Shown here: positions 9,013-34,536 of the stretch, piece by piece
Position numbering within the stretch: position 1 is the stretch's first letter
How the letters are laid out: each line of letters starts with the position of its first letter
From: a virus
Length of the DNA: 34,537 nt
IMG/VR virus record: IMGVR_UViG_3300017527_000260
Span: 1-34,537 of that record
Strand: one strand, 5' to 3'
Notes under the pieces: model-generated
What the model was told of the DNA's origin: nothing
What the model saw: only the letters and a program-made list of their open reading frames with translations
Database searches by the model: none
Translations under genes and position numbers: made by a program

Positions 9013-9804
9013 ATGGCCAAGAAGAAGACAGCAAAGAAAGCGGTACAGAAGCCAGCGACTAGCTCGCCAGACGGAATGGTTGTCATCCACCCGATTGAAC
9101 AGTCATTTCTCACTGTGCCGTGTATCGGGCTAACAGACATCATTTGCAACCGGATAACCCAAAAAGTGAAGGGAGGGCTTATTGGCAAACACTTGCCAGG
9201 CGGCAAGGGGCGCAAAAAGGGGGCAGATGAAGCCAGGAATATCTGGCAAGAAGGCATTGACAGCGGGTACTGGGTAGACGACGACCTCAACCTCGTCACC
9301 CCGCCCGAAAGTCCCATCATAGAAACTGACCCCCTAAAGGCCACTGACGAAGACCTTGTACCTGAAGAAGTAAATGAGCTTCTCAGGAAAGGGCAGTTTG
9401 CTATCCCATCACAGGCAGTGGTCCATGCCTGCGTCTCTGCCGCACGCAACCATGTCAAGGTACACATGACAAACCTGAAGCAATCATTCAGCGTCCCCCA
9501 GCCCTACTTTAGCATCACTGGCGACCCATACATTCGCATTGATGTCGTGAAAGTCGGGGGCAAGGGGCGCGGCACTGGCACCGCTGTCATGCGCTACCGC
9601 TTGGCCTTCCGTGCCGGTTGGCGATGTGACATGCTGCTGGACTACATGCCTGGGATGATTTCTGCCGAAAGCCTGATGAACCTGCTCAACACAGCAGGCT
9701 TCGCGTGCGGCATCCTGGAAAACAGGCCTACAAGCCCCGACACGCCGGGGCCTCATGGCCGTTTCACAATTGCCAACTTCGCGCAAGAGGAGGCAGCGGC
9801 ATGA
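9013..9804 (+). CDS. Conserved phage protein of unknown function, 263 aa
   Basis: The ATG at 9013 follows AGGAGG with 8 nt spacing. A Lys/Ala-rich start (MAKKKTAKKAVQKPA) is followed by HPIEQSFLTVPCIGL. The middle has GQFAIPSQAVVHACVSAARNH, and the end DMLLDYMPGMISAESLMNLLN then GFACGILENRP and PHGRFTIA. The sequence 'R-x-D-x-V-x-V...A-x-x-R-Y-R...L-x-Y-x...LLNxAGFxxGxxExRPxxxGxxGxF' marks a protein found again and again in phages and prophages of many phyla, without a known role. It is the first of three plus-strand genes facing the early operon, and overlaps the next gene by ATGA. Confidence 0.7.
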   Translation: MAKKKTAKKAVQKPATSSPDGMVVIHPIEQSFLTVPCIGLTDIICNRITQKVKGGLIGKHLPGGKGRKKGADEARNIWQEGIDSGYWVDDDLNLVTPPESPIIETDPLKATDEDLVPEEVNELLRKGQFAIPSQAVVHACVSAARNHVKVHMTNLKQSFSVPQPYFSITGDPYIRIDVVKVGGKGRGTGTAVMRYRLAFRAGWRCDMLLDYMPGMISAESLMNLLNTAGFACGILENRPTSPDTPGPHGRFTIANFAQEEAAA

Positions 9805-10106
9805 CACCAGCCAAATACAACTGGCGCAAATACGCTAGCGGCAAGCAAGCGATGTACCTAGGCGATGATCTCCGCAACGAGATGAAGCGCATAGGGAAGG
9901 AGTACGGGGTCAACTGGTCCCTCATAACACGGATAGCGGTGATAAACGAGATCACCAGAATCGGTGAATGGGAAAGGAGAGAAAATAATGAAGAAAGAGT
10001 ATGCGTTCACACCTGGATGCCAGTTAAGTGGCAATGCCCAAGATGTGGGGGAAGAGTTGGCGGCGATACAAGCCAAGAACCCTGCCAACTTGTTAGAGCG
10101 GGATGA
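9801..10106 (+). CDS. Ribbon-helix-helix-like protein with extended C-terminus
   Basis: The ATG at 9801 overlaps the previous stop (ATGA) after AAGAGGAGG. The first ~60 residues (KQAMYLGDDLRNEMKRIG, EYGVNWSLITRIAVINEI) have the strand-helix-helix pattern of an Arc-like DNA-binding protein. The last ~40 residues (VCVHTWMPVKWQCPRCGGRV and on) contain a CxxC that looks like half a zinc ribbon, but they lie in DNA also coding for the following gene (119-bp overlap, +1 frame), so they may be a by-product of that overlap. The DNA-binding call is moderate. Confidence 0.5.
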   Translation: MTPAKYNWRKYASGKQAMYLGDDLRNEMKRIGKEYGVNWSLITRIAVINEITRIGEWERRENNEERVCVHTWMPVKWQCPRCGGRVGGDTSQEPCQLVRAG

Positions 10107-10452
10107 TGTCTGGAAGTCGGCAAAGCGCAAAAAGTCTACCCTGCACACCTACTTTACGTGGGACAAAGAAAAGGCCGTTATTAAATGCTGGCGGCTTGAG
10201 GCCACGAAAGTAATAAGATCGGTTAAACTTGTTGTCCGCACAGAAAACAAGGAGCCGATAAGGGTCAGGGCATTTGCTGCGATGGACCCGGACACTGTTG
10301 AACATACGGGGTATATGAGCATTGAGGAAATGATGCTTGAATACCCCGACGAGATGCTTGAGAGAGCCAAGCGGGAGCTACGTAGAGTCCGAGCGCAGTA
10401 CGCCGACCTGGTGGAGCTTGCAGAAATCTTCCAGCTCGTAGACGCGCTTTAA
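9988..10452 (+). CDS. Conserved phage protein of unknown function, 154 aa
   Basis: The ATG at 9988 follows GAAAGGAGAGAAAATA. The N-terminus (YAFTPGCQLSGNAQDVGEEL) is followed by TLHTYFTWDKEKAVIKCWRLE, ATKVIRSVKLVV and PIRVRAFAAMD. The C-terminal helices are MLERAKRELRRVRAQYADL and VELAEIFQLVDAL. The combination 'F-x-W-D...A...Y/W-R-L-E-x-A-x-x-L-I-R-S' with a C-terminal 'R-x-Y-x-x-L-x-E-L-x-x-I-F' belongs to a protein often seen in phages next to homologs of the gene at 9013 (from memory); its role is unknown. It closes the plus-strand unit, directly before the five-base repeat tract. Confidence 0.7.
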   Translation: MKKEYAFTPGCQLSGNAQDVGEELAAIQAKNPANLLERDDVWKSAKRKKSTLHTYFTWDKEKAVIKCWRLEATKVIRSVKLVVRTENKEPIRVRAFAAMDPDTVEHTGYMSIEEMMLEYPDEMLERAKRELRRVRAQYADLVELAEIFQLVDAL

Positions 10453-11060
10453 GTTGCACCTGGATCGGTCGTAGTGTCCCGATATGTCACGTTTTGGCCG
10501 TTCAGCCTCGTAAGGCTCAGTTAAGCAGTGTCCTGTCAGGTCGCGTAGCGCTTTGTACTGGCCGTTCGGCTGCGTCCCGTCGTGTTAGTCAAGGCTCTGC
10601 CACGCTATGTTATGCTAAGTTTCGGCAGACACGTTTAGCCTCGTAGGGTCTTGTTGGGCCCAGTTGAGCATCGCACCGTCGTGGCCGAAATGTTTAGTCT
10701 TGGACGACAAGTTGCATTAGGTAATGTTGGGCTTGGTTACGGCAGTTTGGTCATGCCAAGTAACGTCAAGTCGCGTTCTGTCTTGTTAGGGCAGCCTTGT
10801 CTTGCTAAGTCATGTCGTGCACTGTCATGTCAGGTCGCGTCAGGTCGTTCTCTGTCTTGCTAAGGCAGCCCTGTTCGGTTTCGTCACGTCCGGTCCAGTC
10901 AGGTTAAATTATGTTGAGTAGAGCCCGTCAGGTCTGGCCATGTATCGTTAAGCAATGCCAGGTTACGTCCCATCTCGTTAGGGCAGTCAAGTCATGCCTA
11001 GTCAGGTCGGGTTGAGTTCGGCCGCGTCAAGTCCTGTCCCGCCTCGTCCAGGTCCCGTCT
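10453..11060. repeat. Degenerate pentanucleotide (GTYNN) repeat tract, non-coding
   Basis: Roughly 600 bp between the convergent ends of two genes are built on a five-base period with consensus G-Y (mostly G-T-C/T) then two or three free bases. Cut into pentamers, 10501-10560 gives 12 of 12 that end in G and begin with a pyrimidine. 10561-10620 gives G at position 4 in 11 of 12 and a pyrimidine at position 5 in 12 of 12; 10801-10860 gives the same counts. 10986-11050 gives GY at positions 1-2 in 13 of 13. The phase steps back one base at intervals, as if occasional units were four bases. A period of five cannot be coding and no supported gene lies inside. Confidence 0.85.
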
Positions 11061-31442: not shown

Positions 31443-31660
31443 TTACTTCTCCAAGCGGTGACTTTCATAATCTGCCTGACATCCCTGTCTGCCAGACAGG
31501 CCGCACAATACATCTGTGGATATCCCATCTTGCCATTGTAATTGTAGACAGCCCCGCAAGTAGGGTATGGGCATTTAAACTGGACCTTGATCCTGCCCTC
31601 TCCCTTGCGCTCCTGTTTCTGCGGAATAATCTCTGTAGTTGATTTAGCCTGCACGGACAT
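31439..31660 (-). CDS. Small zinc-ribbon protein, 73 aa
   Basis: The ATG at 31660 follows AAGGGGGATAAGAACT and overlaps the terminase stop by 17 bp. A basic N-terminus (KQERKGEGRIKVQFK) precedes a zinc ribbon (CPYPTCGAVYNYNGKMG, YPQMYCAACLADRD). It lies between the terminase nuclease and the portal and shares a coupled junction with both, suggesting it works in packaging or head assembly. No family is recognised. Confidence 0.6.
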   Translation of the reverse strand: MSVQAKSTTEIIPQKQERKGEGRIKVQFKCPYPTCGAVYNYNGKMGYPQMYCAACLADRDVRQIMKVTAWRSK

Positions 31661-32612
31661 AGTTCTTATCCCCCTTACGATTCATACGGTCAAACTCTCG
31701 GTCAACCCATTCTAGTGTGTTACGCTTGATAACCCGCTTCTTGCGTGCAGGCCCATGCATTAACTTGTCAAACAGCAGGGCTGTAGCGTCCCAGGCGTGG
31801 TTGTGCTTTTGGACAATCTTCTCTGGGTTATTGGTTCGCTCTAGGCTTGTCTGAGTCCTGTGCTCCTCTAGCCTGAGGTTACTGATTTCCCACTTGAGCT
31901 TAGGACACGCGGACGTGATCCAAGCATGTGGGCGATAGCCACTCTCGCCCCATTTCTCGGCGTTGGCCCAGTAACGCCCCAGGAAATACTGCGCAATGTC
32001 GTAGTCCGAGCCGTGATTGCCTGGGATAAAGTGGACGCCCTCTTCGGCAAAGAGACTGGCAATAGACACCTTCCCCTTTTTGCGTTGCTGGTCCTTGGCA
32101 AAGATCTGAGGGTCCGCTACGATATACTGCAAATGCTTGAAATACGGCCCCGCCTTAATCTTCTCGCACATGTCTATGTAGTTGTTGCAGGGCTCATACA
32201 GCTCCCATAACGCATATGCGTCACTACTGCGATCAATACCCCACACATGGAAATCAGACGGGTTTGTTGACCCATAGTCAAAACAGCCATAGAGAGTCAT
32301 TTCCTTAATAGCTATAGCAGGATCTTTTTGGGCTATATATATTGGGCATTTGGGGTTAAACGCGAACGGGAATACCGGCTCCCCGCCCAGGATGTCAAAG
32401 TTTATCTCATTTTCGCGCTGCCACTTAGAACTTTCTGTGCCACCGATATACCCTTGCAACCGCTTCTGGAGCCATTTCTGGCCCTCTGGCGTATCTGGGT
32501 CCTTTTCCGGGTCAGCTGAGTAATGCACCCACAAGCATGTCAGGCCCGATGGCGTTATGTATGCTCGCATCCCCTTGGGCAATTCAGCCATCCATGGTTC
32601 TACGCGGCCCAA
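31644..32612 (-). CDS. terL: Terminase large subunit, nuclease domain (separate ORF)
   Basis: The product carries the RNase H-like nuclease: Asp112 (YGCFDYGSTNP), Asp167 (IVADPQIF) and Asp275 (HNHAWDATALL), plus the linker LTCLWVHYSADPEKD, GYIGGTESSKWQREN and EPVFP typical of terminase between ATPase and nuclease. It is out of frame with the ATPase ORF, which ends 13 bp inside it. The likely start is TTG 32612, 8 nt after AGGAG; an in-frame ATG at 32591 is the alternative. The enzyme cuts the concatemer during packaging. Either the two domains are translated separately or the frame is shifted. Confidence 0.85.
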   Translation of the reverse strand: MGRVEPWMAELPKGMRAYITPSGLTCLWVHYSADPEKDPDTPEGQKWLQKRLQGYIGGTESSKWQRENEINFDILGGEPVFPFAFNPKCPIYIAQKDPAIAIKEMTLYGCFDYGSTNPSDFHVWGIDRSSDAYALWELYEPCNNYIDMCEKIKAGPYFKHLQYIVADPQIFAKDQQRKKGKVSIASLFAEEGVHFIPGNHGSDYDIAQYFLGRYWANAEKWGESGYRPHAWITSACPKLKWEISNLRLEEHRTQTSLERTNNPEKIVQKHNHAWDATALLFDKLMHGPARKKRVIKRNTLEWVDREFDRMNRKGDKNYVRAG

Positions 32613-33346
32613 GACCTCATCTCCTCGCCTTCCAGCACGAGATCTGCAAAACCACCCTGAGCGGCACTGCTGAGTGCAATGATCCGCTGCACAGCTGGTA
32701 GGGCCGTTGTAAAGGCCCCATAGAAATCGTCCTGAAATGCTGCCTCATCAATGATATACAGCGACGGTGTATGACTCCGTACCTGATGCTCCCCTTGGGG
32801 CACGGCCCTGATCTCAGAGCCCTCCCAAGGGACATACAGGCCTGTATACGGGCACTTATCTGTCTGCGTATAGACCAAGCATCCTTGCTTATTGCCGTTG
32901 CCTGTGACGATGTTATAGTCCATCAGCCACGGTGGCAGCCGGCTTTCTATAAAAGACATGCGCCCGAGCTTAAACTCCTTGCCTCCATGTGTAACCATAT
33001 CCAGGGCATCATCTTCCTTCTTGCCCTGCCACATAATCTTGCGTTCTTGCTTTGTTCTTGCGTACCAGCAGCAGAAAATACAGGCCAGCCACGACATCAT
33101 GACCTGCCTGCTTTTGGGCACAACAACCCGATCGCAAGCCAACCAAGTTCTGAACACCCACTGGATGTATTCCTTCCCAAGCGGTATTTTGCGGTACGGG
33201 CTTTCTGCCAGCGGATCTCTTGTGGTCACGTGTTGCAGGAATCTCCACAGCCCGCTATCGGCGTACCCGAGCTTACGTGTACCCCAGAACTGGATCTGCT
33301 TGATCCACTTATCTCTGTTTGCGTCTTTAGTGTACTTTTTGCCCAT
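32600..33346 (-). CDS. terL: Terminase large subunit, ATPase domain (separate ORF)
   Basis: The 248-aa product holds a terminase Walker A variant (PKSRQVMMSW, residues 77-86), Walker B with catalytic Glu (SLYIIDEAAF, Asp200-Glu201) and a coupling motif (IALSSAAQGGF). It is the motor half only; the nuclease half is in the next ORF. The ATG at 33346 overlaps the deacetylase stop (TAATG). A normal large terminase of this group is one chain of about 550-600 residues; the two ORFs together give 570, so no region seems missing. Confidence 0.85.
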   Translation of the reverse strand: MGKKYTKDANRDKWIKQIQFWGTRKLGYADSGLWRFLQHVTTRDPLAESPYRKIPLGKEYIQWVFRTWLACDRVVVPKSRQVMMSWLACIFCCWYARTKQERKIMWQGKKEDDALDMVTHGGKEFKLGRMSFIESRLPPWLMDYNIVTGNGNKQGCLVYTQTDKCPYTGLYVPWEGSEIRAVPQGEHQVRSHTPSLYIIDEAAFQDDFYGAFTTALPAVQRIIALSSAAQGGFADLVLEGEEMRSWAA

Positions 33347-34536
33347 TAATCCACCACGTCATTGGGATGCATCCAAAACGCACCACCATTTGGCCCGTCT
33401 TCATAATTACAACTATCTCGCGGGGCACATCTTATGTGGTGCTGCCTGTATTTGTGGAACACCTCGCCCATCGTCCTAACATCTATATACTTCCGCTTAT
33501 AGCTGAGATACTCAAATATCCACGATACCCGCATCGGTCCAAGTTCGTTATTGTCTGGGGCGACATCATAATCATAGGAATGCCAATAGAAGTTCGCGGG
33601 ACAATTGCCATTCAGATACATCATGGCAATCCAGTCTTGCACATTATCCCAAATCGTATCTCGGCCTGCTGTATAGTTGCCCTCGGCCCGCCACAAAGCC
33701 ACATTCCTGTTATCCCCATTCCCCTCGCCAACCGTTGCTCTACCTGCTGTAGGTACACCAAAAAGGTTGACCCTCTTGCGCGCCGTGCTGCCGTACCAAA
33801 GCGAGTCGCCGCGATTCATCGACCAGGGCAGCATCTCCCAGGGCATCCACCTTGTTCCATCACCAGCACCAGTGTCCGGCAAGGCTGTATGAAGCTGGAT
33901 GAGACGACCACCTATATAGCCAGAATCAGTCAAGGCCCTCACATAGTGCGTGTCGCAAAACTCAAGGGCAAAGGAATGCATCGTGATGCTCTTGCGCGGA
34001 ATACCAAGACCAGTGGCTAGAGTGTCGCGATTGACATGTGTCTTCATGCTCTCTGTGCGCGAGGCGGCCAAGTATTGCCCATGATGATTGCCATGTTGGG
34101 CGATCTCAAAACCACGGTTATGGAGATACCGATATTCTGATGGTGTCATCCTGCTAGTATACCCGGAATTACCGAAGGCAGAATCGACATGTTCAGTCAT
34201 AATATTGAGCGTGTACTTAAACCCATGCGAGTCAGCCATCTCATAGAAAGTTCGATAGGCTGACGGGTCTGCTAGCCACTCCCAGCTGAAGTTATTTGTG
34301 TCACCATCGTCAGTCGAAATACAGGCCGTCATGGGCTTGTCCCACCACGGCTGCCGGTGCTTTTGGTTCGTATAATACACAACCAAGAACGGATACTTGT
34401 TGTTGTTATCGGTGGGGCCAGCATGGTCTACGGGACATTTCATCTGGGCAGTTGACGATCCGCTCATCCAACCCCACAGCCAAAACCCGTTATTCACCGG
34501 GTCCATATCGACATAGAACTGGACAAGCTCTGTGAC
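33346..34536 (-). CDS. Polysaccharide deacetylase (NodB-like), partial
   Basis: The frame is open to the right edge, so the N-terminus is cut; an ATG at 34506 is internal. Motif 1 is STDDGD (Asp66-Asp67 from that ATG) and motif 2 is HGNHHG (His138, His142), the catalytic Asp and metal-binding Asp-His-His set of NodB enzymes. SAYRTFYEMADSHGFKYTL and EYRYLHNRGFEIAQHGNHH match the usual barrel layout, and YWHSYD near the C-terminus fits the closing His strand. The substrate could be host surface glycan or peptidoglycan. It is the gene directly upstream of terminase, coupled by TAATG, an unusual neighbour for packaging genes. Confidence 0.75.
   Translation of the reverse strand, partial: VTELVQFYVDMDPVNNGFWLWGWMSGSSTAQMKCPVDHAGPTDNNNKYPFLVVYYTNQKHRQPWWDKPMTACISTDDGDTNNFSWEWLADPSAYRTFYEMADSHGFKYTLNIMTEHVDSAFGNSGYTSRMTPSEYRYLHNRGFEIAQHGNHHGQYLAASRTESMKTHVNRDTLATGLGIPRKSITMHSFALEFCDTHYVRALTDSGYIGGRLIQLHTALPDTGAGDGTRWMPWEMLPWSMNRGDSLWYGSTARKRVNLFGVPTAGRATVGEGNGDNRNVALWRAEGNYTAGRDTIWDNVQDWIAMMYLNGNCPANFYWHSYDYDVAPDNNELGPMRVSWIFEYLSYKRKYIDVRTMGEVFHKYRQHHIRCAPRDSCNYEDGPNGGAFWMHPNDVVD

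Follow-up and report, generated by a model that had tools for sequence, protein, structure and literature searches.

A five-base repeat tract in a viral genome as the very probable guide array of a divergent VIPR system

VIPR (Viral Interference Programmable Repeat) was first described in a 2026 preprint (bioRxiv 2026.04.26.720920, PMC13142463), which assigns to this CRISPR-like kind of system a Vipr RAMP protein, a VIPR accessory protein (vap) and vrRNAs of 9–16 GGY/NN pentamers. There the pentamer-repeat RNA is bound by Vipr, a RAMP protein of about 20 kDa, with which sequenced vrRNAs co-purified; the NN pairs recognize DNA by skipping one base between pairs, and phages use the systems in conflict with one another, to silence genes of their rivals. 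The text allows GGY/NN 'or related consensus', mentions 'staggered arrays with overlapping vrRNAs', and gives DNA binding as predicted for some vaps (PMC13142463).

The stretch analysed here (the window) is the whole of IMG/VR record IMGVR_UViG_3300017527_000260, 34,537 nucleotides, and contains between two convergent genes a tract of about 600 bases that the first-pass annotation had already recognized as a drifting pentamer repeat. We conclude that this tract very probably serves as the vrRNA (guide) array of a VIPR system encoded by the phage, and that the locus is a divergent member of the kind described in the preprint: a Vipr-family RAMP gene precedes an accessory gene that is itself conserved, and downstream of both, on the same strand, lies an array with about ten guides (Table 1). 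The first-pass remark that no named element was known with this structure is no longer true, the element having been named in April 2026 (PMC13142463). Among the roles proposed at that time, an untranslated RNA and a binding array for a small protein came close, both being matched by a Vipr-bound guide-RNA array; a recombination hot spot, a packaging site and a partition site have found no support.

Table 1. Features of the putative VIPR locus; for 4-nt units after the first, the start is given
Feature	Position	Strand	Remarks
vipr (predicted)	9013..9804	+	RAMP (Cas7/Csm3-like) protein, 263 aa; C-terminal glycine-rich motif (CGILENRP..HGRF)
Candidate vap	9964..10452	+	Alternative start ATG 9988 possible
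Putative vrRNA array	10471..11055	+	G(T/C)Y-NN pentamers and 4-nt punctuation
Initial units	10471..10495	+	5 units, perhaps partial guide
4-nt unit	10496-10499	+	GGCC
Putative guide S1	10500..10559	+	12 units: CA TC AG CA AA GT CT AG GC GC TT CT
4-nt unit	10560	+	GGCC
Putative guide S2	10564..10623	+	12 units
4-nt unit	10624	+	GGCA
Putative guide S3	10628..10682	+	11 units
4-nt unit	10683	+	GGCC
Putative guide S4	10687..10740	+	3 + 7 units flanking an extra 4-nt unit (10702-10705)
4-nt unit	10702	+	GGAC
4-nt unit	10741	+	GGCA
Putative guide S5	10745..10789	+	9 units
4-nt unit	10790	+	GGCA
Putative guide S6	10794..10863	+	14 units
4-nt unit	10864	+	GGCA
Putative guide S7	10868..10922	+	11 units
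4-nt unit	10923	+	GCCC
Putative guide S8	10927..10981	+	11 units
4-nt unit	10982	+	GGCA
Putative guide S9	10986..11050	+	13 units

The periodicity of the tract is significant. Lag-5 identity over 10453-11060 is 0.425, compared with 0.261 ± 0.018 in 2000 shuffles that keep dinucleotide content (z = 9; highest shuffled value 0.333), G-to-G pairs at this lag number 110 where 50 ± 5 are expected, and the six highest-scoring 300-base intervals of the whole 34.5 kb record all lie inside the tract. Segmentation by dynamic programming gave 124 units, of which 111 have 5 nt, 11 have 4 nt and one has 6 nt, and about 117–124 units of the form G-(T/C)-Y-N-N make up the array itself. In the 93 clean units G occupies the first position 89 times, T or C the second 92 times and Y the third 80 times, so that units read GTC, GTT, GCC or GCT and the earlier observation of a fixed G followed by a pyrimidine holds entirely; the last two positions vary almost freely (entropies of 1.93 and 1.99 bits), and GG occurs in none of the 93. 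The G steps through a fixed five-base grid because 4-nt units interrupt it, just as had been guessed. The plus strand of the tract is poor in A (T 181, G 176, C 154, A 97). A protein-coding origin was rejected since pentamers and 4-nt steps break every frame, and the repeat gives rise to the 70-aa ORF at 10651-10863 as a by-product. A tandem-repeat finder returned a single 19-bp duplication in the tract and no identical direct repeats with unique spacers of the sort that define a CRISPR array; Rfam gave no match in the window or in nine relatives, and a tRNA/tmRNA scan was empty.

The product of 9013-9804 is identified, on profile similarity and its predicted fold, as a Vipr-family RAMP protein. 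Protein families were built by clustering the products of 48 loci with strong arrays, and the family holding this product adjoins or lies near the array in 26 of the 48. Its profile matched a single solved structure, PDB 36pp_D, 'SUSP1 Vipr protein' (E=3.6e-19), and found no match in Pfam, NCBIfam or the named PHROGs. The AlphaFold2 model of the window Vipr has a pLDDT of 84.7, and all 29 Foldseek matches of that model below E=1e-3 are CRISPR RAMP subunits, chiefly Csm3/Cas7 (best E=3.9e-5). The protein sits on a very long branch, its closest relative being 32% identical; a single-sequence search with it recovered no relative from IMG/VR or isolated phages, the putative coat protein likewise recovered none, and by these searches IMG/VR contains no close relative of the phage. 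Across the Vipr tree the second base of the motif has switched between G and T/C at least five times, and GTY arrays are present in several lineages.

The accessory product falls in a second family from the clustering of the 48 array-bearing loci and belongs to phrog_15946, of unknown function. Its family has a confidently predicted fold (pLDDT 94), no Pfam match and no significant relative in the PDB or among solved structures; the best structural matches are weak (E 0.6 and worse) and fall on winged-helix forkhead domains; at best, these would be in keeping with DNA binding. Another accessory family, HTH-like, is found in L010, L016, L031, L048, L050, L122 and L123, whose arrays differ from those of the window's group in having their GTC strand opposite vipr.

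Elsewhere in the window, about 19 imperfect copies of the 12-bp unit CAGCAGACGCAG occupy 445-678 within ORF 48-740, where they encode an Ala/Asp/Tyr-rich stretch, and the N-terminal part of this ORF matches DUF7666 weakly. On the minus strand, two overlapping ORFs (31644-33346), judged by eye, resemble a large terminase subunit, one its ATPase half and the other its nuclease half, and neither matches Pfam; 33346-34506, in a structural-gene neighbourhood, weakly resembles polysaccharide deacetylases just below the Pfam cut-off (E=1.3e-4).

Similar arrays occur in other viral contigs: scanning IMG/VR for (GTCNN)x7 recovered at least 120 stretches, many of which are long arrays with a fixed trinucleotide, free NN and occasional 4-nt units. 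Since this first set had been picked by arrays, a reciprocal set was selected by Vipr similarity alone, comprising 94 loci, 14 of them in named genomes and the other 80 on viral contigs. Arrays are present in 91 of the 94, mostly beside vipr or after the following gene and on the vipr strand in 91/91, and two of the three array-less loci end just after vipr; the window's vap family occurs, on the same strand, in 85/94. The layout vipr–vap–array is therefore standard, and the minimal VIPR locus (vipr, vap and a long non-coding flank) is found in the window. In isolated phages (SUSP1, Donkeykong, ODay, Pipp, Trine and Cy-LDV1) the arrays adjoin Vipr too. Some loci (L010:7889-8457, also L027 and L061) have GTCNN guides of 21–24 units with a 33-nt spacer between them; this spacer, GAAAAACAGCCTCCTTGTCTGAGTGATAAACAC, is conserved, has no Rfam match at the gathering threshold and could be a tail. 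In L167, L171, L176, L161 and L213 very long punctuated arrays adjoin Vipr, with about 320–590 units and 37–115 four-base units, equivalent to dozens of putative guides.

The 4-nt units of the window (ten or eleven) are not scattered at random: they recur about every 12 units, more evenly than under random placement (CV 0.31, P about 0.001), and of ten, nine contain GG and eight read GGCA or GGCC. Among the relatives, 70% of 901 such units are exactly GGCA, the interval between them has its mode at 10–12 units, 54% of intervals fall within 9–13 units as against 19% for random placement, and GGCA-punctuated guides are about 8–14 units long. We infer that GGCA/GGCC marks the boundary between guides; on the assumption that it does, the window guides S1-S3 and S5-S9 have 9–14 units, within the 9–16 repeats of VIPR, and S4 has 3 + 7. 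This punctuation may be what the preprint calls 'staggered arrays with overlapping vrRNAs'.

What the guides of the relatives might recognize was examined with 490 guides of at least ten units from all loci, searched against the fetched loci, 3.5 Mb counting both strands, allowing 0, 1 or 2 skipped bases and using shuffled-unit controls. Matches numbered 1, 43 and 1, respectively, against 2–4 in the controls, and the 43 stem from about a dozen guides. Guides of L222 and L227 among them matched only other arrays and are not counted as having real targets; the matches of the remaining guides are regarded as candidate targets. By sequence matching, NN pairs with one base skipped between them thus match DNA of other phages, the skip falling at the codon wobble position. 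Several matches fall within vipr genes belonging to other phages, although the proportion is not meaningful, vipr targets being over-represented because the searched loci surround vipr genes. When vipr genes alone were searched, five guides matched at the 1-nt skip and none at skip 0 or 2 or after shuffling, and each of the five fits its own vipr worse (3–8 mismatches) than the best foreign one (0–4). In L236 the first guide fits the EDMVR-GMGT codons of 21 vipr genes with 2–3 mismatches of 22, the eight-unit guide of L144 matches exactly as far as GGCA, and a guide of L161 matches vipr in antisense orientation, where the skipped base likewise falls at the wobble position. Apparent matches in vap frames were discarded, these frames overlapping vipr. 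Considering that unit matches in decoded guides were 7/8 for GT units and 36/43 for GG units, GTY units appear, in a small sample, to be no worse than GGY units as carriers of the code.

An early all-versus-all search among the array-selected loci found no target, the signal emerging only once the Vipr-selected loci were added. Guides of M. szulgai had no target in 149 mycobacterial genomes, and the seven contigs found when a mycobacteriophage guide was scanned in IMG/VR were judged chance. Five mycobacteriophage contigs (L169, L170, L173-L175) share a guide, AT TC AT GC TT (T/A)G AT TG GC .., with single NN substitutions; its best IMG/VR match, 21/22 NN bases in contigs L240-L242, is probably chance. 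For L219:4057-4234 and L221:5562-5720, two guides of one prophage array point to sites about 126 bases apart within a single stretch of a related prophage contig. When composition was tested by codon phase, positions 1-2 were preferred to 3-1, but G+C content largely accounts for this and the window alone gave a neutral result.

In the window nine guides and one partial were decoded. The cores of S1, S7 and S8 gave only eight-unit chance matches, none extended, in the 2.9 million viral contigs of IMG/VR, and the window guides matched neither the fetched loci nor the phage's own vipr; the 1-nt-skip rule holds for relatives of the same architecture, the window's own guides having matched no target. 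That rivals of this phage are lacking in IMG/VR is unsurprising because the phage itself has no close relative there.

This lack of targets, together with T/C in place of G at the second base, the long-branch Vipr and a few broken units (TCAAG, ATTAG, ATTAT, ATCTC and TCTCT), could also be expected of a decaying or non-functional VIPR locus whose repeat has drifted from GGY. We consider this quite unlikely: G1 is retained in 89/93 units and GG in the 4-nt units, guide lengths are regular, the vipr and vap frames are intact, and GTY arrays recur in several Vipr lineages, with units of this kind giving correct decoding in relatives. It is very unlikely, too, that the array acts as DNA, as a multi-site binding or nucleation platform for a RAMP-like protein in partition, packaging or recombination. 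Such a platform would suit the fixed 5-bp grid, and the loci with HTH-like vaps, with their GTC strand opposite vipr and arrays between several genes, are consistent with it, but RAMPs bind RNA, NN pairs of the relatives fit genes of rivals only when read by one particular rule, and the preprint sequenced vrRNAs and found them to co-purify (PMC13142463).

T7 primase recognizes 5'-GTC-3', and TRAP binds (G/U)AG repeats with a period of 5. An array of primase sites, suggested by the NNGTC unit, or a TRAP-like RNA sponge, suggested by the pentameric spacing, is scarcely credible and was abandoned after Vipr had been identified, given that arrays accompany 91/94 Vipr-selected loci, that GTC is not conserved (relatives with the same Vipr, vap and punctuation use GGC, GGT or GCC) and that the window units are not the TRAP triplet.

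With the guide-array reading retained, the window resembles VIPR in its Vipr RAMP gene, vap gene, phage-borne array of pentamers with hypervariable NN, guides of 9–14 units and relatives that follow the 1-nt-skip code. It differs in having GTY/GCY units and not GGY, GG being confined to 4-nt units, and in contiguous guides without a SUSP1-type 3' tail. Since strict GG is missing from its 5-nt units, the fixed trinucleotide with hypervariable NN agrees with VIPR only through the 'related consensus' wording of the preprint; because that text mentions both related consensus motifs and staggered arrays, which may be the window's form, we do not claim the form as distinct. The type II system of SUSP1 (L126) shares a homologous Vipr and pentamer repeats on the vipr strand; unlike the window, it has separate vrRNAs of about 100 nt with tails, short GGY runs and a second gene that does not match the window's vap family. 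The invariable structured 3' tail of SUSP1-like type II systems is absent from the window, only 4 nt lying between guides, with no Rfam match. Class 1 CRISPR-Cas systems (type III Csm3/Cas7 with crRNA arrays) have the RAMP fold and RNA-guided recognition in common with it, whereas the window has a single RAMP, a non-contiguous code, no CRISPR repeats or spacers and no other cas gene that we could see. We tentatively suggest, as a possibility we would not yet favour, a tail-less form of VIPR in which GGCA/GGCC delimits guides within one continuous pentamer transcript, pairing units having drifted to GTY/GCY while GG was reserved for the delimiter.

For this phage, the array would be transcribed from the plus strand, one Vipr subunit would hold the GYY of each pentamer and leave NN free for pairing, and each guide RNP would bind and repress DNA of a rival phage.

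VIPR systems, described in one preprint, are proposed viral forerunners of the CRISPR RAMPs. The window locus and the 94 Vipr relatives allow the non-contiguous 1-nt-skip code to be checked independently in differently built arrays, and the relatives suggest that GTY works like GGY, define a conserved 4-nt punctuation and point to guides directed against the vipr genes of rivals.
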